In this document: positions 2,729-33,400 of the stretch, piece after piece | Layout: each line of letters begins with the position of its first letter | How positions within the stretch are numbered: position 1 is the first letter of the stretch | Source of the DNA: Synergistaceae bacterium | Lineage (GTDB): Bacteria > Synergistota > Synergistia > Synergistales > Aminobacteriaceae | NCBI GenBank assembly: GCA_031274425.1 | Contig: JAISQE010000158.1 | Location: 1 to 53,803 of the forward strand | Length of the DNA: 53,803 nt | Reading direction: 5' to 3' | Made by a program: the position numbers and the translations under genes | The notes under the pieces: generated by a model | Told to the model about the DNA's origin: nothing | The model's input: the letters and a program-made list of their open reading frames with translations, nothing else | Database searches by the model: none

Positions 2729-3535
2729 TCATGCTTCCAGGTTCCCCAATTTCCTGAATGCCAATAACGCCGCCCCCAACGCGCCGACGTACTGAGACAG
2801 GGGCGACGTTTTGATTTCGGTCTGCAGTTCTTTTTCCAAGGCGAGCAGCACGCCGGAGTTCTGGGCGACGCCGCCCGTCATGACGACGTCTTTCACGACG
2901 CCCACCCGCCTCGCAAGACCGGAAACCCGCACGGCCACCGAACGGTGGATTCCGTTGATGATGTCGCATCTGTTTTTGTTCTGCGCGAGCTGCGATATGA
3001 CCTCGGATTCCGCGAACACCGTACAGGTGCTGCTGATGTCCACCCGCTGGGTGCTCTGGGCGGACATCGTAGCCAGGTCCTCCAGTTTCACCTCCAAAAC
3101 CCGTGCCATGACCTCGAGAAAGCGCCCCGTTCCCGCGGCGCACTTCTCGTTCATCACGAAGGTGTCGAGAACGCCCCTCTCCCCGACCCGCAAAACCTTG
3201 ACGTCCTGACCTCCAATGTCGATAACGGTGCGGACGCCGGGAAAAAGAAAGTGCGCGCCGCATGCGTGACAGGACAGTTCGCTCATCTCGAAGTTCGCCA
3301 CCTCGATGGAATTGCGGCCGTAACCCGTGGCCAGGACATAGGCCATATCCTCCTTACGGTAGCCGCAGTCGGCCAGAGCCTGGTCGATGACGCGAGCAGG
3401 ACCGCTGGTTCCGGCTCCGAACGGAATCAATGCCTTGCTGACAATCTCTCTGCCGTCGTTCGGGGCGTCTTTCAGAATGACGCATTTCGACGCCGTAGAG
3501 CCGATGTCGATACCCATCGTGTAGCGCGCGCTCAT
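2729..3535 (-). CDS. hgdC: 2-hydroxyglutaryl-CoA dehydratase activator (archerase)
   Basis: This is component A, a homodimeric [4Fe-4S] ATPase of the actin/hexokinase fold that injects a low-potential electron into HgdAB with ATP hydrolysis. The phosphate loop GIDIGSTASKC lies at residues 8-18. The two bridging cluster cysteines are C132 (NEKCAAGTGRF) and C171 (SSTCTVFAESEVIS). The second nucleotide loop, MTGGVAQN, is also present. At 268 residues it matches the family. It starts 19 bases after gcdA, with AGGACGG before the ATG. Extra cysteines at 89 and 92 (SCHACGAH) are typical of the BcrA/BadF group. Because the protein is extremely oxygen-sensitive, it supports a strictly anaerobic lifestyle. 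Confidence 0.95.
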   Translation of the reverse strand: MSARYTMGIDIGSTASKCVILKDAPNDGREIVSKALIPFGAGTSGPARVIDQALADCGYRKEDMAYVLATGYGRNSIEVANFEMSELSCHACGAHFLFPGVRTVIDIGGQDVKVLRVGERGVLDTFVMNEKCAAGTGRFLEVMARVLEVKLEDLATMSAQSTQRVDISSTCTVFAESEVISQLAQNKNRCDIINGIHRSVAVRVSGLARRVGVVKDVVMTGGVAQNSGVLLALEKELQTEIKTSPLSQYVGALGAALLAFRKLGNLEA

Positions 3536-3554
3536 AGCGAACCGTCCTGATCCT

Positions 3555-5312
3555 TCATGGTTTTTTCCAGGTATCGTACTCCCGGAGCGACCGCGGCAAC
3601 AGCATCTGGTGGAACGGGCATATAGACTTCGGATTTTGGTACACGGAGCAGGCGAACGCCTTGATGTAGGACCGCAAGCTCGGGAACTCGACCACCTCGT
3701 CCACCAATCCCATTTTGGCGCAGAAGGCCGGTTTCGCTTTTTCCGTGTATTCCTCGATCAGCTGGTTCATCTTGTCGATGACGGGCTGAAGGTCTTTGCC
3801 CGCCTTTTTGTCCTTCGCCAATCGCCTCGAATACATCGCCGCGGCCGCGGTCTCGCCGTTCATTACGTTGATCTCGGTGGTGGCCGTCCCCAGGGAGAAA
3901 GCGTTGGTGTTGTTGCCCTGCGGCCCCCCCAAAACGTAGTGAGCCGCCGCCGTTCCCTTGCGCAGCGTGATCTCTATCTGAGGCACGCCGGAGGTTTCGA
4001 TGGAGTAGATCAGGGACTGTCCCAGCCCCAAAAGCTCTGCCCGTTCCGCCTCGTCGCCGACATCGATGCCCGTGGTATCCTGAATCCAGACGATGGGTAT
4101 GCGGTCTCTTCCGCAAAGGGTGACGAATTCGTTCATCTTCACCAAACCCTGGCGGTATAGTTTACCCCCGATGCCGGTGGCGTTCTGCCTGTACTCGGGG
4201 TAGTTGACGAGAATCCCCTGGGCGTTGGCGACGACCCCGAGCAAAAGCCCGTCCATCTTCACCAGCCCCGTCACCATCTCGGGACCGTATCCTCGCTTGT
4301 ACTCCAGGATTTCGCTGCCGTCGAAAATGCGCCCCAAGACCTCGTAAATGTTGTAACCTCGCTTGGGATTGAGCGGCACGATGCTGTAGAGGTCTTCGGC
4401 GTTGTAAAGAGGTTCCTTGGGTTGGTCGATACGGAAAAACTCCAGATCGTAAGCGGGGATTTGGCGCATGTATTTTTTGATCGCCTCCAGCACCCCCAGC
4501 TCCTCCGTGTAGACCTCGCGGAAAAATCCCGTCTCGTTGAAATGGACGGCCACCGTCCCGGGGGGCTCCGCCTTGAAGTTCGCCTCCAGCTCTATCAGCT
4601 GATGCGCGCCCTCCAAGTCCACGTAGCCCTTGGGATTCATCCCTCCGAGAATGCCGGCGCCTCCCACCGCCATGTTCGCCTTGCTGTGCGCCAGCAAAAT
4701 GGTGGGGCTGATGCTGTGGTAGCCGCCGCCCGCCGGATTGGTGCCGTAAATGCCGACGATGACGGGAACGCCCAGCTGCTCCAGCTCCGCGTTACGGTAA
4801 AAGGGCGTGCCCCCGCCCCGCCGATTGGGATAGACCTTTTCCTGCGCGCTCAATTTGACGCCGCTGCAGTTGAGAACATAAACCATAGGAATGCGTAGCA
4901 TTTTTGCCGTGTCGGAAGCGCGGATCAGGTTCTCCGCCTGACCGGGCACCCAAGCGCCCGCCAGCTTCTTGTTGTCCGAGGCGACGACCACCGCCCATCT
5001 TCCGCTGATGCGCCCCAACCCTTTGAGAATGGCGGTGGAGCCCTCCGGGTTCTCCTCCGGGTTGAACAGACTGTTCAAGGGGCACCAGGTCCCCTCTTCG
5101 ACCAGCGCTTGGATTCGCTGCATTGCCGTCATCTGCCCGGACTCGTTCAGCGATGCGTCGCTTCTCCCCTCGGCGTACATTTTGCTCGCCAGATCGCGGA
5201 TTTCCTGTTCCACCTTTTTCAACGCGGCCTGGTTCTCCGCGTTTACAGAAGCCAAAGGTCTGCCCGCCGTTGGCATATTTTGAAAATAGGTCGGCATGGA
5301 ATACTCTGACAT
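3555..5312 (-). CDS. gcdA: Glutaconyl-CoA decarboxylase, carboxyltransferase (alpha) subunit
   Basis: This subunit transfers the carboxylate of glutaconyl-CoA to the biotin of the carrier subunit, yielding crotonyl-CoA. In the full complex the membrane subunit then decarboxylates biotin and exports sodium. The protein has 585 residues (587 in Acidaminococcus, from memory). It carries the double crotonase-fold carboxyltransferase signatures, including NRRGGGTPF, GTNPAGGGYHSISPT, KLYRQGLVKMNEFV, DTTGIDVGDEAE and LGGPQGNNTNAFSLG. The partner subunits gcdB, gcdC and gcdD are absent from the window and must be elsewhere. A 95-base gap holding a strong stem-loop separates it from gctB. Confidence 0.95.
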   Translation of the reverse strand: MSEYSMPTYFQNMPTAGRPLASVNAENQAALKKVEQEIRDLASKMYAEGRSDASLNESGQMTAMQRIQALVEEGTWCPLNSLFNPEENPEGSTAILKGLGRISGRWAVVVASDNKKLAGAWVPGQAENLIRASDTAKMLRIPMVYVLNCSGVKLSAQEKVYPNRRGGGTPFYRNAELEQLGVPVIVGIYGTNPAGGGYHSISPTILLAHSKANMAVGGAGILGGMNPKGYVDLEGAHQLIELEANFKAEPPGTVAVHFNETGFFREVYTEELGVLEAIKKYMRQIPAYDLEFFRIDQPKEPLYNAEDLYSIVPLNPKRGYNIYEVLGRIFDGSEILEYKRGYGPEMVTGLVKMDGLLLGVVANAQGILVNYPEYRQNATGIGGKLYRQGLVKMNEFVTLCGRDRIPIVWIQDTTGIDVGDEAERAELLGLGQSLIYSIETSGVPQIEITLRKGTAAAHYVLGGPQGNNTNAFSLGTATTEINVMNGETAAAAMYSRRLAKDKKAGKDLQPVIDKMNQLIEEYTEKAKPAFCAKMGLVDEVVEFPSLRSYIKAFACSVYQNPKSICPFHQMLLPRSLREYDTWKKP

Positions 5313-13346: not shown

Positions 13347-13946
13347 ATGGGAGATCTCGAGATCATATTGGCATCCGGCAGCCCCAGAAGGCGCGAGCTT
13401 TTGAAGGGTCTGGGTTGGAACTTCCAGGTCCTTGTTCCTGAAATCGACGAGAGCCCCCGCGCCGGCGAGCTCCCGAAGGAACTCTGCGTACGGCTCGCGG
13501 CCACGAAGGCCCATGCCGCCGACAGCGACGAAAACTCTCTGGTCGTCGCCGCCGATACGATCGTGGTGGTGGATGGGGACGTGCTGGGAAAACCGGTGAA
13601 TGAAGACGAGAGCCTGAGGATGATTCGACGCCTTCAGGGACGGGTTCACGAGGTCCTCACGGGGGTGGGGATACGTTGGAAAAAACGGATGTCGACCGGC
13701 TTGGAACGAACTCGGGTGCGTTTTCGCCCACTGGACGACGCTGCCGCTCGCGCCTACGTCGAAACGGGAGAGGGTAGGGATAAAGCGGGAGCTTACGCCA
13801 TTCAGGGTCGGGGATCGCTGCTCGTCTCCTCGATAGAGGGGGATTATTTCAACGTGGTGGGGTTGCCGCTATGCAGACTGGGAACGATGATTGAGGAAAT
13901 GGGCCTGAATTTACCCTGTCAATGGGGAGTGGAGGCTCAGAGATGA
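13347..13946 (+). CDS. maf: Maf-family nucleoside triphosphate pyrophosphatase
   Basis: Maf proteins hydrolyse non-canonical or excess nucleoside triphosphates to monophosphates and have been linked to division arrest. The start at 13347 gives 199 residues beginning MGDLEIILASGSPRRRELL, the classical N-terminal substrate loop; longer readings lack family similarity. Other signatures are the ADTIVV motif with the catalytic aspartate, LGKPVNEDES and the C-terminal YAIQGRGSLLVSSIEGDYFNVVGLPL. The TGA overlaps the ATG of the next gene. Whether the preferred substrate is dTTP/UTP or m7GTP cannot be told from here. Confidence 0.93.
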   Translation: MGDLEIILASGSPRRRELLKGLGWNFQVLVPEIDESPRAGELPKELCVRLAATKAHAADSDENSLVVAADTIVVVDGDVLGKPVNEDESLRMIRRLQGRVHEVLTGVGIRWKKRMSTGLERTRVRFRPLDDAAARAYVETGEGRDKAGAYAIQGRGSLLVSSIEGDYFNVVGLPLCRLGTMIEEMGLNLPCQWGVEAQR

Positions 13947-15673
13947 ATTTTTTGAAAGGCGTTGGGGAATGGCCTTCGCGCGTTTTCGCGGCGGGAGTGA
14001 CGGGCGTCGTTTTGATCTGCTCGGTGTACGGTCTTTTGCCCCGCCTGAAACTGGAACAGGACAATCGAAACGTCGCGATCGTCGTCGACTATCGTGAAAT
14101 GCTTCCCATGGCTCAGGAAGCGGGACTTTCGGCGGAGACCACGCTCGAGTTTTTGAAAAAAAAAGGCGTCGTCGGCTTGATGGTCAAGGAGTACACGGCG
14201 GAGGACGTTCAATACGAAATCGGGCCGGACTTCGAGGGGTTGAAAGCGGGCACGGCAGCGGGCATGCCCATCTTCTATCGCGTCGCTCCGGCGCCGACGT
14301 GGCAGTTGCGCCAGTCCCTCGAAACGACGCGGCAAATTTTATCCGAGTATCCGGGCGTCGTTATCGTCTCGCCTTCCGGTGAAATCGCGCTGGGATATCC
14401 CGACCTTATGCCTCTGGCTTCCCTTTTGAAAGAACACGACGTTTCCGTCGCCCAAACCGAATTTTCCCGCCAACTCGGCGCTTCTCAGCTCAATGGGTTG
14501 GCATTCCCCAGGCTCATCCCTCTGCACAGCGTGACGAATGAGGAATTGCTCGTCCGCAGGATCGACAGGGCGGCCCTGCACGACCGTTTCGTCCGCGCGG
14601 CGGTCGAGCGGTCCGTACGTCTTTTGGTGCTGCGGCCCGCGGCCTCCGGCAACGTGAGTTCTTCCCTCGAAAGTTTCGGGGGGGAGGTGGCGCGCCTGGT
14701 GGAGGATTTGCAGTCTCGCGGCCTCCAGGCAGCTTGGCCTCAGCCGGTATTTGCCCAACGCCCGGGATGGCGCATGAACTGGAGCTCGGCTTTGGCGTGC
14801 TCCATGGTTTTTTTGTTGTCCCTGGGCCGCTACCTGAAACGCATGAAGGGGACGCAAGAGAGAGCTTTGCTTGCCGCGGAATCCGTGTTGTTCGTTGCGT
14901 TTGCCGTAGCGCTCGCGTTGGCCGCGTGGAAAATCGCCGCTTTTGCCCGAGCGCTGGGCGCGTTTTCGGCCGCCTTTGTGACGACGGAGGCCTCGTTGAT
15001 CGTTATGGACGTTACCGCCGCGGACGGCCGGCGTTTTTGGAGAACGCTTCCGGAGGGATTCCTTTTCGCGACCGTAGGGGGGCTCGCTATAGCGGCTCTT
15101 TTCAGCGAACCCATTTATATGCTGCGGCTCAGGACCTTTTCGGGGGTGAAGCTCACGTTGCTGCTGCCCCCGCTGTTGGTGGCGCTGCACGATATGCGCC
15201 GCCGAGTCCACCCCGAGTCCCTGGCGGGGTTCCTTTCACGCCCTCCGCTTTGGGGGGAGTTTTTTCTCGGCCTCGTCCTTTTGGCGCTTCTGGCTTTAGC
15301 CCTTTTTCGCAGCGATAATGTCCAGTTCATCCCCGGCTTCGAGGCCAAGGTCCGCGAAACGCTCGAGCGCTTTTTGATCGCGCGTCCCCGCAATAAAGAA
15401 GTTTTCGTCGGCTATCCCTGTCTTCTGCTTTATACTTTCGCGGTGAACTCCGGACTTTGGGCGCGTTATCGCGAGATCTTCCGCGTGGGGGTGGTGTTGG
15501 GTTTTTCTTCCGTGGTGAATAGCTTTTGCCACTACCACACGCCGTTGTTTTTCATTTTGCTGCGCGAATTTCACGGCCTGTGGGTGGGGGCGATCGTGGG
15601 CGTCCTCGCGGTGTTCGTCGTGAAATACGCCGTTTTACCTCTGTGGCGGAAACTTTGTTTTCTGACGGAGTGA
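13943..15673 (+). CDS. DUF5693-like polytopic membrane protein
   Basis: This 576-residue protein of unknown function starts at the ATG overlapping the maf stop, seven bases after GGAGG. One membrane helix (about residues 12-32) is followed by a soluble domain of roughly 240 residues. That domain has a pattern (NVAIVVDYREM, FLKKKGVVGLMVKEYT, PGVVIVSPSGEIALGYP) reminiscent of a barrel or glycosidase-like fold. Eight or so transmembrane helices follow in the C-terminal half. It lies between maf and the pyruvyl transferase csaB, with which such proteins commonly co-occur. A role in export or modification of a cell-wall polymer is inferred only from this context. Confidence 0.7.
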   Translation: MNFLKGVGEWPSRVFAAGVTGVVLICSVYGLLPRLKLEQDNRNVAIVVDYREMLPMAQEAGLSAETTLEFLKKKGVVGLMVKEYTAEDVQYEIGPDFEGLKAGTAAGMPIFYRVAPAPTWQLRQSLETTRQILSEYPGVVIVSPSGEIALGYPDLMPLASLLKEHDVSVAQTEFSRQLGASQLNGLAFPRLIPLHSVTNEELLVRRIDRAALHDRFVRAAVERSVRLLVLRPAASGNVSSSLESFGGEVARLVEDLQSRGLQAAWPQPVFAQRPGWRMNWSSALACSMVFLLSLGRYLKRMKGTQERALLAAESVLFVAFAVALALAAWKIAAFARALGAFSAAFVTTEASLIVMDVTAADGRRFWRTLPEGFLFATVGGLAIAALFSEPIYMLRLRTFSGVKLTLLLPPLLVALHDMRRRVHPESLAGFLSRPPLWGEFFLGLVLLALLALALFRSDNVQFIPGFEAKVRETLERFLIARPRNKEVFVGYPCLLLYTFAVNSGLWARYREIFRVGVVLGFSSVVNSFCHYHTPLFFILLREFHGLWVGAIVGVLAVFVVKYAVLPLWRKLCFLTE

Positions 15674-15689
15674 CATGCGGAGTGACATG
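15666..15689 (+). repeat. 12-bp tandem duplication creating two csaB starts
   Basis: CGGAGTGACATG occurs twice back to back (15666-15677 and 15678-15689). Each copy carries both a GGAG ribosome binding site and an ATG in the same frame, and the first copy contains the stop of the preceding gene. Confidence 0.9.
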
Positions 15690-16712
15690 AAAACCCCGAG
15701 GCGTTATCGGGTCGCGCTGGCCGGTTACTACGGTTTCGGCAACCTGGGCGACGAGCTTTTACTCGAGGCATCGATTGCCGCGCTTTTGCGTTGCGGAGTC
15801 GCGCGCGAGCGTATTGTGGCGCTATCCAACAATCCCGACGATTCTCGGCGAAAGTTCGGAGTCGACGCCGTCGATCGATGGAAAATCCCGCAGGTTTATC
15901 GCGCCTTGGGGCGAAGCGAAACGTTTTTGCTGGGAGGAGGGGGCTTGTTTCAGGACGCGACCAGCCTGCGTTCGTGCGTCTACTATTGGGGACTCGTACG
16001 AGGGGCGGCCTTTCAAGGCGCCGTGCCCTGGGCCCTGGGCCAGTCCGTCGGCCCCCTGCGCTCGCGTTTTGCCCGATGGCTGACCCGCGACGCCCTAAAA
16101 CGTTGCCGCGTGGTGCAGGTGCGCGATAGGGCGACGTTATCGCTTTGCGAAACCTTGGGATTGAACGCGAACGTCGAGCTGGGTCATGACCTGGCATTTT
16201 CCTTGAGCGGCGTTTTCTTCGAGAACAATCCGGGAAACCAGGTCTCGAAATTATTGGTGAACCTGCGGCCCTGCGCCGACGGTCTGCCCGAACGTTTTGC
16301 CAAGGCCGTTTCCGCTTACGCCTCTGCTTTTACGGGCGATGTCCTGGGAGTCGCGCTGTCAGAGGAAGACGAATGTCTGATGCGCCGCTTGACGGACGAG
16401 AAACTCCTTTTTTTGCCGCGCATCGAGCGCGTCGCGACGTTCTTGGATGCTGTTCGCGTTTTTCACGGCGCGAAGGCGGCGGTTGGGATGAGATTGCATT
16501 TCGCGATATTGGCGACCCTGACTTCGACGCCCTTGGTTGTCGCGCCTTACGACCCCAAGGTGGAGGCCTTCGCGTCGGACGGCAACATCCCGATGTGGCG
16601 CGGAGGCCCGTTGCCCCCGCCGCAATTGCCCGCAGCCGTGTTTTCGCCGGAAGCCCTTCGGAAAGAAATCGACGTCCTTTGCCGAAATATCTTGGAATCG
16701 GAACGGCTTTAG
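15675..16712 (+). CDS. csaB: Polysaccharide pyruvyl transferase CsaB
   Basis: CsaB adds pyruvate ketals to secondary cell-wall polymers, which in many bacteria anchor S-layer-homology (SLH) proteins. In diderms with SLH porins it is part of the outer-membrane tether. The 345-residue frame shows GYYGFGNLGDELLLEA at the N-terminus, the LLGGGGLFQD loop, ALGQSVGPL and the late VGMRLHFAILATLTSTPLV motif, all typical of the pyruvyl-transferase fold. Either of two in-frame ATGs (15675 or 15687) could be used; they come from a 12-bp tandem duplication that copied the ribosome binding site too. It sits directly behind the DUF5693-like gene. Confidence 0.92.
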   Translation: MRSDMKTPRRYRVALAGYYGFGNLGDELLLEASIAALLRCGVARERIVALSNNPDDSRRKFGVDAVDRWKIPQVYRALGRSETFLLGGGGLFQDATSLRSCVYYWGLVRGAAFQGAVPWALGQSVGPLRSRFARWLTRDALKRCRVVQVRDRATLSLCETLGLNANVELGHDLAFSLSGVFFENNPGNQVSKLLVNLRPCADGLPERFAKAVSAYASAFTGDVLGVALSEEDECLMRRLTDEKLLFLPRIERVATFLDAVRVFHGAKAAVGMRLHFAILATLTSTPLVVAPYDPKVEAFASDGNIPMWRGGPLPPPQLPAAVFSPEALRKEIDVLCRNILESERL

Positions 16713-16800: not shown

Positions 16801-16829
16801 TTGCTATTGTCGTTTCTCCCCGATAAAAT
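16801..16829 (+). promoter_or_regulatory. Promoter of the transketolase-like/ftsEX run
   Basis: TTGCTA (16801-16806) and TAAAAT (16824-16829) are separated by 17 bases. They place a transcription start about 45 bases upstream of the ATG at 16882. This suggests that the run from the transketolase-like genes into ftsEX has its own promoter. Confidence 0.6.
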
Positions 16830-16881: not shown

Positions 16882-17739
16882 ATGGACGCTGTTGTTTTGG
16901 CAGAACTCAAGGCTCGTGCGCTGAACGTCAGATGCGACATAGTCCGTATGCTCGGTGTTGCCCGGACCAGGCACATGGCGTCGTCGCTTTCCGCCGCGGA
17001 TATCCTCGTGTGGCTTTACGGCTCCGTGCTTTCGGTTCGCCCGAGCGAACCCCTTTGGGAGGAGCGAGACCGTTTTGTCCTCAGCAAGGCGTCCGCCAGC
17101 CCCGCATTGTACGCCGCGCTGGCGGAACGCGGTTTTTTCGACCGGGACGATTTATGGGGATACCGCCGGTTGGGCAGCACGCTTCAAGCTTTCGCGGATT
17201 CTCGCCGGACGCCCGGCGTCGATGTTTCCTGCGGCGCGATGGGAATAGGGCCGGGGATCTCTCTGGGGCTGGCGTTGACGTTCAGGAATCGGACTCCCCA
17301 GCCCCGCGTTTTTTGCCTGATGGGGATCAGGGAGCTGCAGGAGGGATCGGTGTGGGAGGCCTTGATCGCCTCCGCGCGTCACAGATTGAGCAATTTGACC
17401 GTCATCGTGGATAAAAGCGACTTTCGCTCCATGAGCGAGTCTCCAAACGTTTGGGTTCTCGACTCCCTGGCGGAGAAGTTCAATTCTTTCGGCTGGGCCG
17501 CCGCGTGCGCGGACGGGCACGACATGCAGTCGCTGAACAGCGCCTTCGAGTCGTTGCCGGACGATTGTCCGCGCCTATTGATCGCGAAGACGGTGCGAGG
17601 CAAAGGAATTCCTTCGTTGGAACGGGAAACGCCGACCGACGAGGTCGCGTTGGATTCTCAAACGACGGACGACTTATTGAAAGAACTGGAGGGACGAAAC
17701 GATGGCGGTACCGAAAAAAAGTTTGGGAGAGGCATATAA
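16882..17739 (+). CDS. Transketolase-like N-terminal subunit with degraded cofactor site
   Basis: The 285-residue protein aligns by eye along its length with the N-terminal (thiamine-diphosphate) half of split transketolases: SLSAADILVWLYG, RDRFVLSK, ELQEGSVWEAL. Key residues are changed. The S-K-G-H motif reads SKAS (68-71), so the histidine is lost. The metal-binding G-D-G is GIR (148-150). The second metal ligand, the Asn of the V-D-x-N motif, is S179. It therefore probably cannot bind Mg-thiamine diphosphate normally. The frame is intact, with its own promoter and coupling to the C-terminal partner. I infer a pseudoenzyme or changed chemistry rather than a standard pentose-phosphate enzyme. 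The start at 16882 is chosen because the family similarity begins there. Confidence 0.8.
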   Translation: MDAVVLAELKARALNVRCDIVRMLGVARTRHMASSLSAADILVWLYGSVLSVRPSEPLWEERDRFVLSKASASPALYAALAERGFFDRDDLWGYRRLGSTLQAFADSRRTPGVDVSCGAMGIGPGISLGLALTFRNRTPQPRVFCLMGIRELQEGSVWEALIASARHRLSNLTVIVDKSDFRSMSESPNVWVLDSLAEKFNSFGWAAACADGHDMQSLNSAFESLPDDCPRLLIAKTVRGKGIPSLERETPTDEVALDSQTTDDLLKELEGRNDGGTEKKFGRGI

Positions 17740-18652
17740 GGACGCTCTTCTGTCGCTGGCGGATTCTCGTCCCGATCTGTTTGTGCTCGACGCGGACCTG
17801 GGTTTCTTTAGAGAAGAATCCGAGTTTGGGTGTCGATATCCCGACCGCTATTTGAATATCGGAGCGGCGGAGCAAAACCTGGTTTTGACGGCCGCCGGCA
17901 TGTCCATCGCGGGCTTGTGCGTGTACGCGTCGGCGTGTTCTTCGTTTCTCGCGGGGCGCGCTTACGAACAAATACGTTCGGCCGTCGCTTTGCCTGGTTT
18001 GCCGGTTCACCTGGCGGGCAGCCACGCGGGCGTCACGGTGGGCGAGGACGGCGCGACATACCAGATGCTCGAGGATATCGCGTTGATGCGGGCATTGCAT
18101 AACATGACGATCCTCGTCCCCTCCGACTACACCTCGGCATACGCGTTGTTCCGCAGAGTCGCGAACATGAAAGGTCCCTCCTACACTCGCCTTGCCCGGC
18201 AGGAGCAGCCCTCGATCTACGGGCCCGAGGACATGGATTTCCGCATCGGAGGAGGGCGAATCTTGCGGGAGGGGAACCAGATAACGATTTGCGCTTGTGG
18301 TATCATGGTAGGGGAGGCTCTGAAAGCTGCGGAAGTTTTGGATCAGCAGGATATCGGCGCGGAAGTCATCGATTGTTATTGTCTGCGCCCTTTTCCGGTG
18401 CGTTTGGTTTCGTCCTCTTTGCAGCGAACGGGATGTTGCGTGACGGCGGAAGAACATTTTTTGCCGGGGGGCCTTTTCGAACTGGTGGCGGGGTTGGCCG
18501 CGCGGGAATATCCCGTCCCGGTGCAGCCGGTTGGAGTCAAAATCGGTTTTGGGCAGAGCGGTTCGGCGGAGGACCTGAAAGAATATTACGGCCTTACGGC
18601 GGATCAGATTGTCAGCGCCGCCGTTTTGGCGTGGACGATGCGCCGCAGGTAA
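17702..18652 (+). CDS. Transketolase-like C-terminal subunit with altered active site
   Basis: This is the pyrimidine-binding and C-terminal half of a split transketolase or DXP-synthase-like enzyme (316 residues). The cofactor-activating glutamate is kept (E57 in NIGAAEQNLV), and GRAYEQIR, GSHAGVTVGEDGAT and the VPSD segment match well. The catalytic histidine of the usual G-A-T-H-Q motif is tyrosine here (Y120, GATYQ). The ATG lies inside the 3' end of the N-terminal partner (38-base overlap) with GGAGGGACG upstream, so the two are co-translated. With both halves altered at matching functional places, the pair looks like a maintained non-canonical complex. Confidence 0.8.
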   Translation: MAVPKKSLGEAYKDALLSLADSRPDLFVLDADLGFFREESEFGCRYPDRYLNIGAAEQNLVLTAAGMSIAGLCVYASACSSFLAGRAYEQIRSAVALPGLPVHLAGSHAGVTVGEDGATYQMLEDIALMRALHNMTILVPSDYTSAYALFRRVANMKGPSYTRLARQEQPSIYGPEDMDFRIGGGRILREGNQITICACGIMVGEALKAAEVLDQQDIGAEVIDCYCLRPFPVRLVSSSLQRTGCCVTAEEHFLPGGLFELVAGLAAREYPVPVQPVGVKIGFGQSGSAEDLKEYYGLTADQIVSAAVLAWTMRRR

Positions 18653-18699: not shown

Positions 18700-19395
18700 A
18701 TGAAGATAAAATTTTCGGGTGTGACGAAGGTATTCAAACCCGATATCGTTGCGTTGAAAGACGTGCATTTGGAGATCGCCAAAGGAGAATTCGTCTACGT
18801 GGTGGGGGCTACGGGCTCGGGAAAATCGACTTTGCTTCGCATGATCACTCGCGAGGTTCTCCCCACCAAGGGTTCCGTTTCGGTCGGAGACACGAATTTA
18901 CGAAAAATGCGCCCCAGCGATATTCCGTATTATCGTCGGGACGTGGGGTTGGTCGCTCAAGATTTCAAGCTCATTCCTCACCTGACGGTGCTGGAAAACG
19001 TGTCCTTCGTGATGGAGGCCATGTCCGTTCCCTCCAAGATGGTGGAGTATCGGGCCAACAAGGTGATCGAACAGGTCGGATTGTGGCGTCGACGTTTCAT
19101 GAGGCCACCCCAGCTTTCGGGCGGAGAGCAGCAGCGCGTGGCGATCGCGCGCGCCTTGGCCAATTCGCCGTCGCTTTTCGTTGCGGACGAGCCGACGGGA
19201 AATTTGGATTTTCGCACGTCCGCGGACGTCATGAAGATCCTCCTGGCGATCAACGCGGCCGGGGTGACGGTCGTGATGACCACCCACAATCAATACATCG
19301 TGGACTCCTACCGTCAGCGCGTCATCGAGTTGAACTCCGGCAGAGTCGTTCGGGACGAACACTCGGGGAGGTATACGCCGGATGACGACGTTTAG
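18700..19395 (+). CDS. ftsE: Cell-division ATP-binding protein FtsE
   Basis: This is the cytoplasmic ATPase of the FtsEX complex, which drives periplasmic murein hydrolases at the septum. The start at 18700 (MKIKFSGVTKVFKPD) gives 231 residues, the usual length. The Walker A is GATGSGKST, the Q-loop is GLVAQDFKLIPHLTV, the signature is LSGGEQQRVAIARAL and the Walker B is LFVADEPTGNLD, with a TTHN switch histidine. Longer in-frame readings to the left overlap the transketolase-like gene and are not real. ftsX overlaps its 3' end. Confidence 0.96.
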   Translation: MKIKFSGVTKVFKPDIVALKDVHLEIAKGEFVYVVGATGSGKSTLLRMITREVLPTKGSVSVGDTNLRKMRPSDIPYYRRDVGLVAQDFKLIPHLTVLENVSFVMEAMSVPSKMVEYRANKVIEQVGLWRRRFMRPPQLSGGEQQRVAIARALANSPSLFVADEPTGNLDFRTSADVMKILLAINAAGVTVVMTTHNQYIVDSYRQRVIELNSGRVVRDEHSGRYTPDDDV

Positions 19396-20266
19396 CTATA
19401 TACTGCGGGACACCGGGCGTCTGCTGGTAAGGCATTGGTTTTTAGGCATATTGACGCTGATCACGGCGGCCGTCATGATGTGGATACTGGGCATTACGAC
19501 GCTTTTTTCCTTGAATATCCAAAACTTGCTCCAAAAACTGGAAAGCGAGCTGGTCGTTCAGGCCTACGTTAAAAAAGGCAGCGAGGTGGGGAAGATCGCG
19601 GAAACGATTCGCGCGATGGAGGCCGTCACCTCCCTTACCGCTTTGTCGCCCGAGGAAACTCTGACGAAGCTCCAGGCCAGAATGGGAAGCCAATCTCATG
19701 CCCTCGACCTGATCGGAGAAAACCCCCTGCCATGGAATTTCGAAATCCGCGTGAAAAACGCGGTGGAGGTTCCCCACCTGGTGCGAACGTTGATGGCGAT
19801 GCCGGAAATTGAGGACGTCGTCTACGCGGGCATGGTGGTGGAACGAGTCGCCGCCATATCGAGGGTTGCCTCCAAGGCCGCGGTGGCGATGTTCGCGCTG
19901 TCGATCATGATCACCTCCCTGGTGGTCTACAACACCATCCATATCTCCCTTTATTCGAGGCGCGAGGAAATCGCCATCATGTTTCTGGTGGGGGCGACCC
20001 GCAGTTATATTTCGACGCCGTTCGTTCTGGAGGGGACTTTTTTGGCTCTTCTCGGTTCTATCATCGCGGTGGCGGGCATCACGTCGGCTTATTTCCCCGG
20101 AATACGCCTTTTGCAGCAGAGTTTGCCTTTTCTCAGCCTGGTGGGCGACCTGCGTACGATCGGCCAGTTCGGGGTGCTGCTCGTCGGTTTTGGGGCCACG
20201 TTGGGCTGGGTGTGCAGTTGCATTGTGGTGACGCGCTTCATGAACTCCACGACCAGACCGCTGTAA
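19382..20266 (+). CDS. ftsX: Cell-division permease-like protein FtsX
   Basis: This is the membrane partner of FtsE. The 294 residues comprise an N-terminal cytoplasmic stretch and a first helix (about 22-45, FLGILTLITAAVMMWILGI). A periplasmic extracellular domain (about 50-160) follows, then three C-terminal helices around 170-290 with the conserved RREEIAIMFLVGATRSYI segment. The periplasmic domain is the expected docking site for EnvC-type activators, and two such proteins follow directly. The ATG lies ten bases after GGAGG, within the end of ftsE. Confidence 0.95.
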   Translation: MTTFSYILRDTGRLLVRHWFLGILTLITAAVMMWILGITTLFSLNIQNLLQKLESELVVQAYVKKGSEVGKIAETIRAMEAVTSLTALSPEETLTKLQARMGSQSHALDLIGENPLPWNFEIRVKNAVEVPHLVRTLMAMPEIEDVVYAGMVVERVAAISRVASKAAVAMFALSIMITSLVVYNTIHISLYSRREEIAIMFLVGATRSYISTPFVLEGTFLALLGSIIAVAGITSAYFPGIRLLQQSLPFLSLVGDLRTIGQFGVLLVGFGATLGWVCSCIVVTRFMNSTTRPL

Positions 20267-20281: not shown

Positions 20282-21511
20282 TTGCGCAAGGGCGGTTTTT
20301 TCAGGTCGTTTTTTTCTCTGATTCTCCTTCTCCTTTTGACGGCGCCCGTAGGGTGCGCGGCATGGGCGGCTCCGGCGGCGGATATCGACGCCCAGATCGC
20401 GACCGAGGAGCGTCGGAGGAAAGAGCTGGATCGAAAGTTGGAGTCGTACCGGAGCACGATCCGTCAGATGAAGGTCAAAGAAAACGATTTGCTCGTGCGT
20501 ATCGACCAGTCTCAGCAAGCCACGGAGAAAGCCCGGCAGGAAATGACGATTTTGGAGTATCAAATCAGCAAGCTCCAGAAAAACATCGTCGTTTTGAACG
20601 GGGAAATGGATCAGACGAAAAACCGGATCAACGATTTGGTTTTCGCCCTCAAGCGTCGCATGATCGATATCTCCAAGTATGGTACCTCCGAGGAGCTTCT
20701 TTTGATTTTTTCGGCCGAGAGCACGCATGAGGTCCTCGATTCCGTCTATCTTCTAGGGAAGCTTGCCGAGCACGACCAGTTCCTGATCGAGCAGCTCCAG
20801 GATAAAAAGCAGGAAATCGAGCTGTCGCAGCGGACCCTGGAAGATCATCGCGATCGCTTGCAACAACAAGCGAAGTCTCTTGAGCAAGAGCGTAGCAAGT
20901 ACAACTCCACAATCAAGCAGACCAATACTTTTTTGAATGATATCCGCCGCCAGAAAGCTTTGGCCGAAAGAGCGGCCAAGGAGATGGAAGAGGCCCAGAA
21001 GGCGGTGGGGCAAACCATCTTGACCTTGATGCGGCAGAGGAAAGAACGCGACGAAGCGGCGAGAAAAGCCGGAGGCAAGGGCAGCACGGATTACCTGGCA
21101 GGAAGGATCGCGCAGGGAAGGGGATCGATGTTCGATTGGCCCTTGCGCGGCCCGATCAGCAGTCCTTTTGGCTCGCGGATACATCCCGTATTCAAGACGA
21201 AGTCTTTTCATTCCGGCCTGGACATCGCCGCCCCTCGGGGAACGGCCGTCAAAGCGGCGGCCCCGGGAGAAGTGTTGTTCGAAGGGTGGATGAGGGGCTA
21301 TGGACAGGTCGTCATCATCGACCACGGACGCGATTACTCTACCGTCTACGCGCACATGTCCTCCACTCGGGTCAAGGAGGGAACGGTGGTGAACGCGGGA
21401 ACCGTCATCGGGGCGGTGGGCAACACCGGGACGACGACAGGCTACCATCTCCATTTCGAAGTTCGTATCGGCAGCACCGCGAAAAGCCCTCTGGATTATC
21501 TCAAACGCTGA
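20282..21511 (+). CDS. EnvC-like murein hydrolase with an intact M23 domain (copy 1)
   Basis: This 409-residue secreted protein has a signal peptide (FFSLILLLLLTAPVGCAAWAAPA) and a long coiled coil (about residues 35-260) of the kind that binds FtsX. A C-terminal LytM/M23 domain follows. All metalloprotease residues are present: H310 and D314 (HSGLD), H358 (YAH), H389 and H391 (HLH). It should therefore cleave peptidoglycan peptides itself, unlike E. coli EnvC, whose LytM domain is inactive. The cysteine in PVGCAA lies near the signal cleavage site and could make it a lipoprotein, though this is not a strict lipobox. The start is TTG at 20282, 15 bases after ftsX. Confidence 0.92.
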   Translation: MRKGGFFRSFFSLILLLLLTAPVGCAAWAAPAADIDAQIATEERRRKELDRKLESYRSTIRQMKVKENDLLVRIDQSQQATEKARQEMTILEYQISKLQKNIVVLNGEMDQTKNRINDLVFALKRRMIDISKYGTSEELLLIFSAESTHEVLDSVYLLGKLAEHDQFLIEQLQDKKQEIELSQRTLEDHRDRLQQQAKSLEQERSKYNSTIKQTNTFLNDIRRQKALAERAAKEMEEAQKAVGQTILTLMRQRKERDEAARKAGGKGSTDYLAGRIAQGRGSMFDWPLRGPISSPFGSRIHPVFKTKSFHSGLDIAAPRGTAVKAAAPGEVLFEGWMRGYGQVVIIDHGRDYSTVYAHMSSTRVKEGTVVNAGTVIGAVGNTGTTTGYHLHFEVRIGSTAKSPLDYLKR

Positions 21512-21520
21512 GGGAGTCAG

Positions 21521-21560
21521 GCATGAAAAATTGAGTATGAAAATTAGGTATGAAAATTTT
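21521..21560. repeat. Three tandem 13/14-bp repeats between the two EnvC-like genes
   Basis: GCATGAAAAATTGA, GTATGAAAATTAG and GTATGAAAATTTT follow one another between the stop of copy 1 and the ribosome binding site (GGAAGGAG) of copy 2. They contain start codons but no useful open frame. Confidence 0.8.
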
Positions 21561-21578
21561 GGAAGGAGTGCGGGGCCG

Positions 21579-22784
21579 ATGAACAAAACTTTGGCGGTCG
21601 TCTTGACGTTGTCGTTTTTTTGTTTCCCGTGCGACGGATGGGGCGCTCCAGCGACGGATCTGGACGGGGAAATCGCGGCGCAGGAGAAGGCGCGGGATGA
21701 ACTGAACAAAAAAATACAACAATACAATGAAACGGCGCAAAAAAAAGCTCAACAGGCGCGAAGCCTGCTGGGGCGCATCACCGATTTGCAGCAGAACTCT
21801 AAAATGGCGCAGCAGCAAGTCAAACTCCTGGAATTGCAATCGAATAAGCTCCAAAGATCGATGACGGAGCTGGATCGGGAAATAACGACGACCTCCCGTC
21901 AGGTCGACGATCTGATCCGCGAGCTGCGGGTTCGCGTGGTCAATATGTACAAATACGGTTCTCGTGAAGGGCTGAACCTGCTGCTTTCCGCAGAAAACAC
22001 TCACGAGGCCGTCGCGTCCGCGTATCTTCTGGACCGGCTTTCGCGATACGACCAGGTCGTGATCGACGAACTACTGAGCAAAATGAACGAGTTGGAACAA
22101 GGCAAGCGCAGCTTGGAGAAAAATAAAGAACAACTGACGACGCGAACCGAGGAACTGAACGCCCAGCGCGAGAAGTACAATTCCTCCATCAACGAGACCA
22201 ACGTCATTTTGTCCGGCGTCCAGCGAGAGCGGCAAAAAGCGGAAGCGGCCGCGAAAGAAATGGAACAGGCCCAACAAGAAATCGGACGCACCATCTTTGC
22301 CCTGATGCAAAGGAAAAAGACCCGTGAACCCGACAAAAAAACTAAAAACGAGGGAAGCGCCCCGGCCCCCAAATATCCCAGCCTCGCTCGCGGTTCCATG
22401 TTGGACTGGCCGGTTCAGGGGCCGATCGATAGGCCTTACGGTTCGCACGTGCACCCTGTTTTCAAAACGAAGTCCTTCAACTCGGGAATAGACATCCGCG
22501 CTTCGTCGGGGGCCCCCGTCAGGGCGGCCGCGCCCGGCGAGGTGCTGTTCGAGGGGTGGCTTCGAGGTTTTGGTCAGGTGGTCATCGTCGATCACGGACA
22601 AAACATTTCCACGGTTTACGCTCACCTAGCCTCGACCCGAGTGAAAGAAGGGGACGCGGTGCAGTCGGGGACGGTTATCGGGACTGTGGGCAACACGGGG
22701 ACGATGGAAAGTTACAGCCTGCACTTTGAGGTGCGCGTGAAAGAATCCGCTAAGAATCCGCTGGATTATCTGAAGAAAGCCTAG
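21579..22784 (+). CDS. EnvC-like protein with a degenerate M23 domain (copy 2)
   Basis: This tandem paralogue of the preceding gene has the same plan: signal peptide (residues about 4-23), coiled coil to about 245 and a C-terminal LytM domain. It has 401 residues from the ATG at 21579, ten bases after GGAAGGAG. The catalytic domain has lost the first zinc ligand (N301 in NSGID where copy 1 has H) and the first His of the final H-x-H (S380 in SLH), while D305, H349 and H382 remain. It is therefore probably an activator or scaffold, like E. coli EnvC, working with copy 1 or with an amidase under FtsEX control. Confidence 0.92.
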   Translation: MNKTLAVVLTLSFFCFPCDGWGAPATDLDGEIAAQEKARDELNKKIQQYNETAQKKAQQARSLLGRITDLQQNSKMAQQQVKLLELQSNKLQRSMTELDREITTTSRQVDDLIRELRVRVVNMYKYGSREGLNLLLSAENTHEAVASAYLLDRLSRYDQVVIDELLSKMNELEQGKRSLEKNKEQLTTRTEELNAQREKYNSSINETNVILSGVQRERQKAEAAAKEMEQAQQEIGRTIFALMQRKKTREPDKKTKNEGSAPAPKYPSLARGSMLDWPVQGPIDRPYGSHVHPVFKTKSFNSGIDIRASSGAPVRAAAPGEVLFEGWLRGFGQVVIVDHGQNISTVYAHLASTRVKEGDAVQSGTVIGTVGNTGTMESYSLHFEVRVKESAKNPLDYLKKA

Positions 22785-22942: not shown

Positions 22943-24202
22943 ATGGGTGGAAACAGTTTTTTTAAGAACAAAAAGTTGTTGTGCGGATTCTTGGCCGTAT
23001 TGGTCGCGTTGGTTTCGCTGAGGATTGGAAACCTTGCCACAACCTCGGCGGGAGCCGCGGATATTTCCGATTTCGAAAGGATATCCCCTTTCAGCGCCAA
23101 GTCTTTGTGGTTGGTGCGCCAAGCGAGAGCGATCATCGAGACCTATCAGGTCGACGCGGAGGCGAAACCGGTAACCGAAGATCATCTTGTCCAGGGCGCG
23201 ATCAAGGGCATGGTGGAGTCTTGGAAGGATCCCTACACGCGCTTCGTGTCCCCCGAGCAGTTGAAGGACGAAGAAATAGAAATGGAAGGCCAGTACGGCG
23301 GGGTGGGCATGTACATCGGAGATCGGGACGGTAAAATACTGGTCATCAGCCCCATTGAGGACACTCCCGCCGAAAAAGCCGGGTTGAAGCCGATGGATCA
23401 GATCGTCAAGGTGGGAGACGAGGTCGCGTTGGGCTGGGATTCTCAGGAGGTGGTGAAGCGTCTGAGAGGCAAACCGAACACCTCCGTGGTCATTTGGATA
23501 CGCCGCGAAGGCGAGGAGGAGCTGCTGAAATTCGAACTCAATCGCGAGGTCATTAAAATCAAATCGGTACGGTACGAAATGCTGTCCGACGACATCGGTT
23601 ATTTGAGGCTGACGCAGTTCAAACAAAAGACGGATGTGGAAGCCGCGGACGCGATACAGGGGATGATCGCTCAGGGGGCCAAGGGGATGATTTTGGACCT
23701 TCGTAACAACGGCGGGGGGCTGCTCAACGTCTGCGTCAACATCAGCAGCATGTTTTTGGACGGCGGGCTGGTTGTGGGGACGCGGGGCCGAGTCGAGAAG
23801 TCCAACGAGGAGTATTACGCGGACTCCTCCCACTATTTGACCGATATGCCGATGGTCGTTCTGATCAATGAAGGCAGCGCCAGCGCGTCGGAGATTTTGG
23901 CGGGAGCCTTGGCGGACAGAGAGCGGGCGGTTACGATCGGTAAAAAGAGCTTCGGCAAAGGTTCGGTGCAAACGCTTTTCAACCTTACGGACGGCTCGGG
24001 AATTTATGTGACGATCGCGCGTTACCACACGCCTTTGGGCAAAGTTATCGACCATGTGGGGCTCACCCCAGTCATCGAGGTGGAAGGGCAGTTGGACAAG
24101 GACTACGTCAAGGACGCTCAATTGCAGCGCGCGATTTCCGAGTTGAAAAAGAAAATATTGAAACCGGCGACTACGGCTTCTAACGCTCGGCAGCAGAGTT
24201 GA
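22943..24202 (+). CDS. ctpA: S41-family C-terminal processing protease
   Basis: This periplasmic tail-specific protease has a membrane anchor or signal at residues about 10-30, a PDZ domain near 110-200 (YGGVGMYIG to VKVGDEVALGW) and the S41 catalytic core. The catalytic serine lies in NEGSASASEILAGAL and the lysine in GKKSFGKGSVQ. The 419 residues are typical. Its place after two murein hydrolase-like genes suggests it may regulate their turnover, as CtpA/Prc-type proteases do for septal hydrolases elsewhere. The 158-base gap before it holds no clear promoter. AGGGGAGAAGG-like sequence precedes the ATG. Confidence 0.94.
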   Translation: MGGNSFFKNKKLLCGFLAVLVALVSLRIGNLATTSAGAADISDFERISPFSAKSLWLVRQARAIIETYQVDAEAKPVTEDHLVQGAIKGMVESWKDPYTRFVSPEQLKDEEIEMEGQYGGVGMYIGDRDGKILVISPIEDTPAEKAGLKPMDQIVKVGDEVALGWDSQEVVKRLRGKPNTSVVIWIRREGEEELLKFELNREVIKIKSVRYEMLSDDIGYLRLTQFKQKTDVEAADAIQGMIAQGAKGMILDLRNNGGGLLNVCVNISSMFLDGGLVVGTRGRVEKSNEEYYADSSHYLTDMPMVVLINEGSASASEILAGALADRERAVTIGKKSFGKGSVQTLFNLTDGSGIYVTIARYHTPLGKVIDHVGLTPVIEVEGQLDKDYVKDAQLQRAISELKKKILKPATTASNARQQS

Positions 24203-29012: not shown

Positions 29013-29029
29013 CGAAAGGAGTGTTCGAT

Positions 29030-30358
29030 ATGCTGCTCATAGGAAATGGCCCGACGATCACACGGGACGAAAACAATCCTTTTTTGCCCGACGGCTGCGT
29101 GGCCGTCGACGGGGCCCTCATCGCGGAGGTCGGGGACACGGCGGAGATGAAGGGCAAATACCCCGGCGCGCGGTTTCTCGACGCCGAAAGAAATATCATC
29201 ATGCCCGGCTTCATCAACGGCCACACGCATTTTTACAGCACGTTCTCGCGGGGGATGCCGGGCAAGTACCCGCCAGCTCAAAATTTCGCCGAGGTTCTGG
29301 ACCGCTTGTGGTGGAAACTGGACAAGGCTCTGACGCTGGAAGGGGTCTACTACAGCGCGATCACCGCTTTGGTGGACTGCGTCAAAAACGGATGCACTAC
29401 GGTCATCGATCACCACGCGTCCCCTCTGCACGTCGCGGGAAGCCTGTTCGAGATCGAAAAAGCCGCGCGCCTGGCTGGCATCCGCGCCTCGCTCTGTTAT
29501 GAGGTGTCGGACCGCGACGGAGCGGAGATCATGAAACAGGGCATCAAGGAAAACGTCGATTTTATCGACCATGCGGCCCGAAGCCAGGACGACAGGGTTG
29601 CCGGCATGTTCGGCTTGCACGCGTCCGTCACCCTGAGCGACGAGACTCTGGCCCTGTGTCGCGAGGCAATGGGCGACCGGGACGCGGGATATCACGTCCA
29701 CGTGGCGGAGGGGCCGGCGGACCAGGAGGACTCCGAGGCGAAGTACAAAAAACGCGTCGTCGAGCGCTTCCGCGATTTCGGCATAACGGGCGGCAAATCC
29801 CTTTTCATCCACTGCATTCACTTGAACGACAAGGAACTCGACGTCATCGGGCAAACCGGCACCGCCATCATCCACAACCCCGAGTCCAACATGGGCAACG
29901 CCGTCGGGTGCGCGCCCCTCCTGAAAATATGCGAACGGGACATCCTGACGGGGCTCGGCACGGATGGGTACGTCAGCGATATGCTACAGTCCTATAAGAT
30001 GGCCAACGCCCTCCAGAAACATCATAACAAGCATCCCAACGTCGCGTGGGGCGAGATCCCGACGATGCTTTTCGAGAACAACGCGAAAATTTGCGCCCGT
30101 TATTTCAAAACGCCGGTGGGCAAACTGGCCGCCGGTTATTCCGGTGACGTTATCGTCTCCGACTACAACCCACCCACCCCGCTTTCCGACGCGAACATCA
30201 ACGGACACCTGCTTTTCGGCACGGAAGGGCGTAGCGTCGTCGCCACGGTCGCGGCCGGAAAGGTGCTGATGCGGGACCGCCGCTTGACGGAGCTGGACGA
30301 GAAAGCCATTTTCGCCAAAGCGAGGGAGGTCGGAGCCAAGGTCTGGGAAGCCGTTTGA
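29030..30358 (+). CDS. ssnA: Putative aminohydrolase SsnA
   Basis: This amidohydrolase-superfamily protein belongs to the selenium/purine cluster. Starting at the ATG at 29030, eight bases after AAAGGAG, it has 442 residues, the length I recall for E. coli SsnA. A GTG three codons earlier overlaps the ribosome binding site and is unlikely. The metal motif is NGHTHFYSTFSRGM. Further ligands are likely in DHHASP, YHVHVAEG, IHCIHL and GLGTDGY. SsnA is part of the gene set shown in gut bacteria to support anaerobic uric acid use and is expected to open or deaminate a purine-derived ring. The exact reaction is not visible from sequence. Confidence 0.92.
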   Translation: MLLIGNGPTITRDENNPFLPDGCVAVDGALIAEVGDTAEMKGKYPGARFLDAERNIIMPGFINGHTHFYSTFSRGMPGKYPPAQNFAEVLDRLWWKLDKALTLEGVYYSAITALVDCVKNGCTTVIDHHASPLHVAGSLFEIEKAARLAGIRASLCYEVSDRDGAEIMKQGIKENVDFIDHAARSQDDRVAGMFGLHASVTLSDETLALCREAMGDRDAGYHVHVAEGPADQEDSEAKYKKRVVERFRDFGITGGKSLFIHCIHLNDKELDVIGQTGTAIIHNPESNMGNAVGCAPLLKICERDILTGLGTDGYVSDMLQSYKMANALQKHHNKHPNVAWGEIPTMLFENNAKICARYFKTPVGKLAAGYSGDVIVSDYNPPTPLSDANINGHLLFGTEGRSVVATVAAGKVLMRDRRLTELDEKAIFAKAREVGAKVWEAV

Positions 30359-30409
30359 GGGCCGGGGGTGTCCTCGAATGGGTTATTCCGAAAAGGAGGG
30401 GATCGATTT

Positions 30410-33400
30410 ATGTCGCATATCATGAGGCCGCAACCGTTCGGCACGCTGCTTCGATGGATCGTGAACGAGCACGAATCGACGGGGTCCATTTTTGGCATTC
30501 ACAAGTCGCTTTTTTACGTTCCGAAGGAGAACGCGCCCTACTCCACCGAAATTTTCGGGCAAAAGCTCGCGACGCCTTTCGGGCCCGCCGCCGGCCCCAA
30601 CAGCCAATTGACGCAGAACATTGTCGCGAGCTGGTTGGGGGGCGCGCGGTTTATAGAGTTGAAAACCGTTCAGATCATGGACGAGCTGGAGTTCGGCCGC
30701 CCCTGCATCGATATGGAGGACGAGGGCTATAACGCCGAATGGTCCCAGGAACTGAAATTGGAGCAGTCCGTGCGGGAGTACATCAAGGGATGGACGCTGC
30801 TTCACGTGCTGCAAAAATTGTTGGGCTGGGAAAAACTTCCCTTCGGGACTGTTTTCAACATGAGCGTGGGCTACAACCTGGACGGAATCAAAAGCTCTCG
30901 TATGCAGAAATTCATGGGCATCATGACGGACGCGTCGGAGTTCATCGAAAAATACAGGGCGGTTCTCGCAAAAGACTTCCCTCGGTTCGCGGACATCGAG
31001 ATCCCCAGCCGCCTGATCGACAGCGTCACGCTCTCCACGATGCACGGCTGCCCGCCGGAGGAAATCCAAAAAATAGGTCTCTATCTCCTGGAAGAAAAGG
31101 GGCTTCACCTGATCCTAAAGCTCAACCCGACGCTTTTGGGCAAGAGCGAGGCCATGAAGATCCTCCACGAGGACCTGGCCTACACGGACATCGAGATTCA
31201 CGACTCCACGTTCGACCACGACCTCCAGTACCCCCGCGCCGTCGAAATCGTCTCCACGCTAAAAAACCGGGCGCGGGAGCTGGGGCTTTTCTTCGGAGTC
31301 AAGCTGACCAACACCTTCGCCATGATCAACCGCCGCGGCGCGATGCCGGGCGAGGAGATGTACATGTCGGGACGCTCGCTCTACCCGATCACCATGCAAC
31401 TTTTCGACCGCCTTTCCAAACATTTCGGGGGAGACCTTCCCGTGTCGTACTCCGCCGGAGCCGACGAGCTGAACGTGGGGACGATCTTCGCTTGCGGGGC
31501 CCTGCCGGTCACCATGGCGTCCGACCTCCTGAAGCCTGGGGGGTACGCGAAGTTTCGTTCCTGCATCGAGGCCCTCGAGGCCGCCATGAAAAAAGCCGGG
31601 GTCGAAAATTTAAAGGACTACGCGCGCGGGAGCGCCGAGGCCCTCGACAAAGCGGCAAAAAACGCCCTATCCGACCCGCGCTATAAGAAAAGCGCTTTCG
31701 AGGGGATCCCCAAGGTCAAATCCAGCCTCGGCCTCTTCGACTGCGTGGCGGCTCCCTGCATGGAAAGCTGCGCGGTGTGTCAGGACGTGCCCTCCTATGC
31801 TTGGCAGATCGCTCAGGGGGATTTCGACGGGGCCCTGGCCAGCATCCTCCGTAAAAATGCTCTGCCGGGCGTGACGGGGCACGTTTGTACCCATCGATGT
31901 CAGAGCGCCTGCACGCGCAACAACTACGACAGCCCCGTGGCCATCCGGGCGCTCAAGCGATTCGCGGCGGAACACGGGAATGCCTCGGAGAACCTGAAGG
32001 CGGCGCTGAAAATCGAGAAAAACGGATACAAGGCTGCGGTCGTCGGCTCGGGGCCCTCGGGTCTGGCCGCGGCAATGTCCTTGGCCCTCGCCGGGATGGA
32101 GGTCACGGTTTACGAGGAGATGCCCCGAGCGGGGGGCATGATGGCGCTGGCGCCGACCTTTCGCCTGCCTCGGGAGGCGATGGACGCGGACGTCCGGCGC
32201 GTCACGGACCTGGGCGTCAAGATTGAGCTGAACCACAAGATCTCCGAGGCCCCGGAGAAACTGCTCGAAAAGGGTTTCGACGCCGTCTACGTGGCCTGCG
32301 GCTTCCCCGAGGACGCGCCCTTCGACGTTCCTGGGCTGACCTCCCAGGGGACGTTCACTCCTGGGGTATTCACCTCCATGCAACTGCTCAAGTCCGTGGC
32401 GGCTATGGAGGTCTCGGGAACCTCCCCGAATGCCGAAAAACCGGCGCTCGGCAAAAAAACGATCGTCGTCGGAGGCGGCAATACCGCGATGGACGTCGCC
32501 CGGACCGCGTCGCGCCTGACGGGAAACCCCGTGTCGGTGGTCTACCGACGCACCCGCGCCGAGATGCCGGCCATTCAGGAGGAGCGGGACCTGGTCTTTC
32601 ACGAGGGAAACGAGCTGATCGAACTCGCGGCGCCGAGCGGAGTCGTCGTCGAGAACGGCAGGGTCGCGGGGCTGGAGTGCGAAAGATGCCGCTTGGGCGA
32701 CCCCGACGCGTCCGGCCGACGCGCCCCCGTCCCCACAAGTGAGAAGTTCGTCGTCAAGGGGGACTCGATCGTGATCGCCATCGGCCAGGGCCCCGAGAAG
32801 AGCCTTTTTCGGAACAGCCGCGTGATCACCAAAAAGAACGGCGCGGTGGAGGTTCGGGCCAACGGCATGACGTCGGTCTGTGGTGTTTTCGCGGGCGGCG
32901 ACGCTGTTCGGACCCCGGCGATCGTCATCCAGGGCTGCGCGGACGGTGCGAAGGCCGCCGAGGCCATCTGCGCCCAGTTGGGAATCCCCTCGGGCCCCGT
33001 CGCCCCGCTGCCGGTCTTGACCGAGGAGGACATCTTGAAGGTCAAAGCTCTTCGCGCCCACAAAAGCCGTCAGCATGAGGAGTCCCGCCTGCCTTTGGCG
33101 GACCGCAAAGGTTTTGAGCTTGCGGAACGGACGTTCTCCCCGGAGGACGCCGTTTCCGAGGCGAGGCGCTGCCTGCAGTGCGCGTCTTTTTGCGACAAAT
33201 GCGTGGAGGTCTGCCCCAATCGCGCCAACGTCGCCTACAAGGTGACGCCGATCCGGGTGGACGTGCCTAGAATTCGCGCCCACAACGGAACCGCGGTGAC
33301 CCTGGGAGTGGAGCGGGTGGAGATCGTTCAGGCGCGGCAAGTCCTCCACGTCGACGACTTTTGCAACGAGTGCGGCAACTGCTCCACGTTCTGCGTCCAC

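Follow-up and report, generated by a model that had tools for sequence, protein, structure and literature searches.

The window, a stretch of 53,803 nucleotides from a Synergistaceae bacterium, carries two overlapping genes for the halves of a split transketolase-like protein. TK-N (16882..17739, 285 aa) is the transketolase PP-domain chain, and its ThDP/metal site has been lost; TK-C (17702..18652, 316 aa) is the chain of the Pyr and C-terminal domains. Both frames read through and overlap by 38 bases, in keeping with the original prediction, which had described them as intact and had placed them between csaB and ftsE. The gene order bears out that location. On the same forward strand lie csaB, for a polysaccharide pyruvyl transferase (15675..16712; TIGR03609 above cut-off), and downstream of the pair ftsE (18700..19395; best match TIGR02673 with 242 bits, below the cut-off of 265, supplemented by gene context), ftsX (19382..20266; NF038347/TIGR00439, below cut-off, plus gene context), an envC-like gene for a murein hydrolase activator (20282..21511; NF008644, below cut-off) and a ctpA-like gene for a processing peptidase (22943..24202; TIGR00225 above cut-off). 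The interval between ftsX and ctpA holds EnvC/M23-like murein hydrolase activator genes in tandem (20282-21511 and 21531-22784), an apparent duplication. The reading frame upstream of csaB (13922-15673), matched by no NCBIfam model, presumably belongs to the DUF5693 family. A promoter of its own, also claimed for the pair, found no support: a single weak sigma-70-like site was seen (16801-16829), where 0.8 are expected by chance, and in most relatives the transketolase genes overlap or almost abut csaB and ftsE. Elsewhere in the window, genes for a ferredoxin-type oxidoreductase, an M20 peptidase and molybdenum hydroxylase subunits are clustered (30368-43489) and adjoined by an amidohydrolase gene (29021-30358), possibly for breakdown of purines or related heterocycles; on the minus strand, 2-hydroxyglutaryl-CoA dehydratase and carboxyl-transferase genes (1477-5312) suggest glutamate fermentation via the hydroxyglutarate route.

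The PP, Pyr and TK-C domains are all present in the pair (Pfam PF00456, PF02779 and PF02780, above cut-off). The AlphaFold2 models of TK-N and TK-C were confident (mean pLDDT of 88 and 93, respectively), and the best structural matches in Foldseek were 6YAK and 6YAJ at TM 0.82-0.92 (6YAK_A at 0.82 for TK-N and 6YAJ at 0.92 for TK-C), the fold of a transketolase. The TK-N model was weak at residues 103-108 and ~181-190, taking in the canonical cofactor-loop region. The pair does not belong to 1-deoxy-D-xylulose-5-phosphate synthase (DXS), as TK-C scored 144 bits against the cut-off of 466 for the NCBIfam dxs equivalog and TK-N gave no DXS match.

We mapped the active-site residues by alignment to the solved split transketolase 6YAK/6YAJ and by its published ThDP contacts (PMC7661550). 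SKAS (68-71; 17083..17094) replaces SKGH in TK-N, with loss of the diphosphate-contact His, and G148-I-R (17323..17331) replaces GDG, with loss of the metal-ligand Asp; Ile149 cannot bind metal. The metal-ligand Asn is replaced by S179 (17416..17418), the diphosphate-contact Lys (ChTK K240) by R239 (17596..17598), the donor-site His (yeast H103) by F104 (17191..17193) and the catalytic His (yeast H263) by D253 (17638..17640). In TK-C, Y120 within GATYQ (18059..18061) takes the place of a His (yeast H481), and the cofactor-activating Glu (E418) is kept as E57 (17870..17872). The residues named in the original prediction (S68-K-A-S71, G148-I-R150, S179, G-A-T-Y120-Q and E57) were all correct, and its list was incomplete by His to F104, Ile to S183, Lys to R239, H263 to D253 and Ile to A55. 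Counted as ThDP contacts of 6YAK/6YAJ, the replacements are His70 by S71, Asp148 by I149, Gly149 by R150, Asn178 by S179, Ile182 by S183 and Lys240 by R239 in TK-N, and Ile53C by A55 in TK-C. The contacts Lys68 (K69), Glu150 (E151), Glu55C (E57) and Phe80C (F82) are kept, as are H31, H108 and D116. From the histidine set of the yeast enzyme (H30, H69, H103, H263, H469 and H481) only H31 and H108 remain, the others being S71, F104, D253 and Y120. The metal and diphosphate site that marks a split transketolase (GDG...N, SKGH, Lys) is broken at I149, R150, S179, S71 and R239. By this comparison the N half is heavily damaged, whereas the main loss in the C half is that of H481 (Y120). We infer from these residues that the pair of this genus no longer binds ThDP-Mg. 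Canonical transketolase was expected elsewhere in the host genome, and it was found there as a full-length enzyme (contig C8) and two further split enzymes (C19 and C141), in which the TK-N motifs are preserved, along with most motif residues of TK-C.

The order rnj-uppP-maf-DUF5693-csaB-TKN-TKC-ftsE-ftsX-envC-ctpA (the DUF5693 name being the one we presume) is common across Synergistota. TK-N and TK-C overlap by 4 bases in many genomes, and TK-C is separated from ftsE by 1-9 bases, or overlaps it, in 62 of 68. In four genomes (G020, G004, G014 and G007) no csaB lies upstream within the fetched flank, and the pair is still attached to ftsE. In a sister species (G001), a frame of ~526 codons with the look of an ATP-binding transcriptional regulator lies between csaB and TK-N (locus L035, ~3390-5040). 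All syntenic copies group together in the TK-C tree, apart from the canonical split paralogues, with 97% support, and on this basis we rejected confusion with paralogues. The pair is absent while ftsEX is kept in 20 of 90 sampled genomes; thus it is not required for FtsEX. Three genomes (G106, G056 and G039) have csaB and ftsE with the pair cleanly missing between them; in other relatives, ftsEX stands without the pair in a different upstream context. Its presence and absence demand a minimum of 8 changes on the FtsE plus FtsX tree, and the genomes without it belong to clades in which the motifs are eroded. Three Firmicutes genomes (L178, L180 and L181, relatives of an uncultured Peptococcaceae) have a canonical split transketolase directly before ftsE-ftsX-envC-ctpA, often downstream of prfB, and because of them this neighbourhood may predate the phylum; in most of the Firmicutes relatives sampled, no such adjacency to ftsE appeared within the fetched flanks. 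The Firmicutes arrangement suggests either an old neighbourhood or transfer.

At the corresponding locus of the deep-branching outgroup family (f11, G108-G110), no motif residue is missing. Because this outgroup carries a fully canonical split transketolase between csaB and ftsE-ftsX-envC, the ancestor was most likely canonical. None of the 67 Synergistales orthologues on the tree has kept H263, and no scored Synergistales copy has the diphosphate Lys; the equivalent of E57 is kept in nearly all orthologues. About half retain GDG, though without H263. These GDG-keeping orthologues may bind ThDP, and some of the Asp-to-Glu changes could leave metal still bound. The fewest parsimony changes on the FtsE plus FtsX tree, by a quick method and with some weak branches, were at least 10 for D157, 13 for N187, 8 for H69, 9 for H481 and one for H263. 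By these counts, the ThDP/metal site has been lost independently in many lineages, the genus of the window included. R166, a better match to yeast R528 than the Arg first tabulated, is lost in 42 of 69. All three species of the genus show the loss, and several genomes of high quality or in a single contig show it again, so we rejected strain-specific decay and sequencing error. Orthologues with restored residues had been named as a sign of decay in this strain only; intact-motif orthologues do exist, but the loss is repeated across the phylum. The expectation of the same substitutions in orthologues fails as worded, since the replacements vary (I/A/T at D157, S/A at H69). In orthologues of families f4 (mostly; L116-L126) and f6 (L092 and L093), most active-site residues are gone and the C-terminal domain with its RRR tail remains. 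These are better test cases than the pair of the window.

The TK C-terminal domain (residues 180-316; 18239..18649) is the best conserved part of the pair in Synergistales. Within it, C197 (18290..18292) and C225 (18374..18376) are near-invariant in syntenic orthologues, RTGCC (242-246; 18425..18439) is an order-specific signature, and the chain ends in W311-x-x-R314-R-R316 (18632..18649), a terminus absent from the outgroup and from canonical split transketolases. RRR closes the chain in 66 of 66 complete orthologues but in no canonical or outgroup sequence. Order-specific near-invariance extends to Y295 and W311 in TK-C and to W92 and C145 in TK-N. Mean pairwise identity among eroded Synergistales copies is 0.60 for the C-terminal domain, 0.42 for PP and 0.37 for Pyr. 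Among canonical split transketolases the order is inverted, with PP at 0.55, Pyr at 0.52 and the C-terminal domain least conserved at 0.47. The inversion is already seen in motif-intact Synergistales copies (0.65 for the C-terminal domain, 0.52 for PP and 0.48 for Pyr). As these copies share the C-domain features, the shift in constraint probably came before the cofactor site decayed. The conserved cysteines may serve only core packing. The hydrophobic moment of the tail is no higher than in a canonical chain; the tail is not clearly amphipathic, and we set aside its binding to membrane. We know of no settled function for the transketolase C-terminal domain.

This distribution of constraint bears on the possibility that the pair is an enzyme of different chemistry, in which a remodelled active site still accommodates ThDP, or some other ligand, in the original pocket by means of E57, K69, E151 and F82. 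The near-universal E57 is in its favor, along with the K69, E151, H31, H108, D116 and F82 kept in the window, the GDG without H263 of about half the family, and F104, which fits a DXS-like difference of His to Phe (PMC7661550). Yet in the window pair neither side-chain metal ligand remains, the diphosphate-contacting His and Lys have been replaced, as has the catalytic His, and the loops near the cofactor site were modeled with low confidence. The replacements differ between sister species and thus define no conserved new pocket, and conservation is highest in the C-terminal domain rather than in either cofactor-binding domain. We consider a changed chemistry improbable.

No orthologue contained an internal stop. 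Among three species of the genus, all without GDG, omega was 0.14-0.21 for TK-N and 0.10-0.12 for TK-C, with bootstrap upper limits of at most 0.30, compared to 0.22-0.31 for csaB and ~0.04 for ftsE in the neighborhood; the low dN/dS that the original prediction had anticipated was thus found. The C-terminal domain by itself gave 0.07. In columns invariant among canonical enzymes, eroded lineages keep the residue at 29% in the active site vs 72% elsewhere (p=4e-5; two group-defining columns left out, with a similar outcome for one representative per clade), which is the signature of a catalytic activity lost and a protein kept. The pair of the window combines lost catalytic residues with purifying selection, as a pseudoenzyme does. 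These values weigh on the explanation by relaxed decay, by which a redundant transketolase copy is dying in several lineages with no remaining function. The absence of the pair from a share of the sampled genomes, cleanly so in three, would be expected of such a copy, as would the coincidence of absences with eroded clades, the presence of other transketolases in the host genome, and the tendency of TK-N toward faster evolution where the motifs are eroded than where they are intact. The omega of 0.10-0.21 after the loss largely refutes it, however, and neither the lack of stops and frameshifts with persistence through deep lineages, nor the 0.60 identity of the C-terminal domain with its invariant C-terminus, is expected of a functionless gene; we regard it as quite unlikely. 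Equally doubtful is a regulatory subunit that forms mixed tetramers with the cell's canonical split transketolases and tunes them: the window genome encodes two such enzymes, and separate chains come together as alpha2beta2 in split transketolases (PMC7661550), but in the eroded genomes G050 and G041 the matches listed comprise, besides the eroded pair, only one in a long full-length frame, with no split partner of canonical type, and the pair is linked to ftsE by gene order.

We favor a maintained pseudoenzyme, at a probability of roughly 0.6. It would probably be a heterotetramer without catalytic activity, its C-terminal domain serving as a module for binding or regulation that is expressed together with FtsEX. 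The loss in three species, the intact frames, an omega far below 1 and the canonical transketolases elsewhere in the genome support it, and to this extent the original interpretation stands, shorn of its separate promoter. Comparison across the phylum shows an ancient enzyme locus that has, to judge from its residues, become a maintained gene without a cofactor site. Strong selection despite the lost cofactor residues makes a new, non-enzymatic role very probable. With less certainty, the C-terminal domain would be a binding module acting with or beside FtsEX; the proposed link to FtsEX, division or envelope growth is drawn from gene order. The history most likely began with a canonical split transketolase between csaB and ftsEX in the ancestor. 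In Synergistales, H263 and the diphosphate Lys are gone from all scored copies and the near-invariant C-domain features (C197, C225, RTGCC and RRR) are present; the ThDP/metal site was then lost many times, while frame, fold, position and purifying selection persisted. The chains would still assemble as a transketolase-like alpha2beta2 body, without ThDP-Mg or ketol transfer. Its working part would be the C-terminal domain with the Arg tail, which might bind a protein partner or a small ligand, and the pair would be produced in step with FtsEX. Its role may be to report sugar-phosphate status to the division and peptidoglycan-hydrolase machinery, or to act as a scaffold. A bolder and tentative proposal is that a new class of envelope or division regulator has arisen from transketolase, in which the C-domain cysteines and Arg tail became an FtsEX-EnvC-coupled module and the ThDP site was then freed to decay repeatedly.

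Our search of the open-access literature returned nothing on a split transketolase with ftsE, on transketolase in Synergistota or on a bacterial transketolase pseudoenzyme. The locus preserves, at a single fixed position in the genome, the passage from an intact enzyme to a pseudoenzyme, repeated in many independent losses, and thus allows a direct reading of the order in which a pseudoenzyme evolves. The focus of selection has shifted away from the active site and onto the C-terminal domain of transketolase, the function of which thereby becomes testable. Were the link to FtsEX true, a component derived from sugar metabolism would have been added to the control of bacterial division in a little-studied phylum.

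The split transketolase of Carboxydothermus hydrogenoformans (6YAK/6YAJ, PMC7661550) shares the two-chain domain split and the fold of the window pair, at ~38-44% identity in structural alignment; among solved structures, its two chains are the nearest relatives of TK-N and TK-C. Its ThDP-metal site is complete and the enzyme is active, whereas in the window pair the two side-chain metal ligands, both diphosphate-contacting residues (His and Lys) and the catalytic His have been lost. The RTGCC and W-x-x-RRR of the window TK-C, in turn, are not found in the C. hydrogenoformans enzyme. DXS has a related three-domain fold, with a Phe at the position of TK His100 (E. coli numbering) comparable to F104, but it is catalytic and a single chain, in contrast to the two chains here. 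The nearest known parallel is human TKTL1 (PMC3485151), related to transketolase and, it has been argued, incapable of binding ThDP; a functional transketolase is encoded elsewhere in the genome, as is the case for the window pair. TKTL1 is a single chain that lacks a block of 38 residues. The window pair has no such deletion in the cofactor domain: it consists of two chains of intact length and fold, altered by point substitutions only. Unlike the block deletion of TKTL1, the substitutions in Synergistota recur phylum-wide under strong selection.
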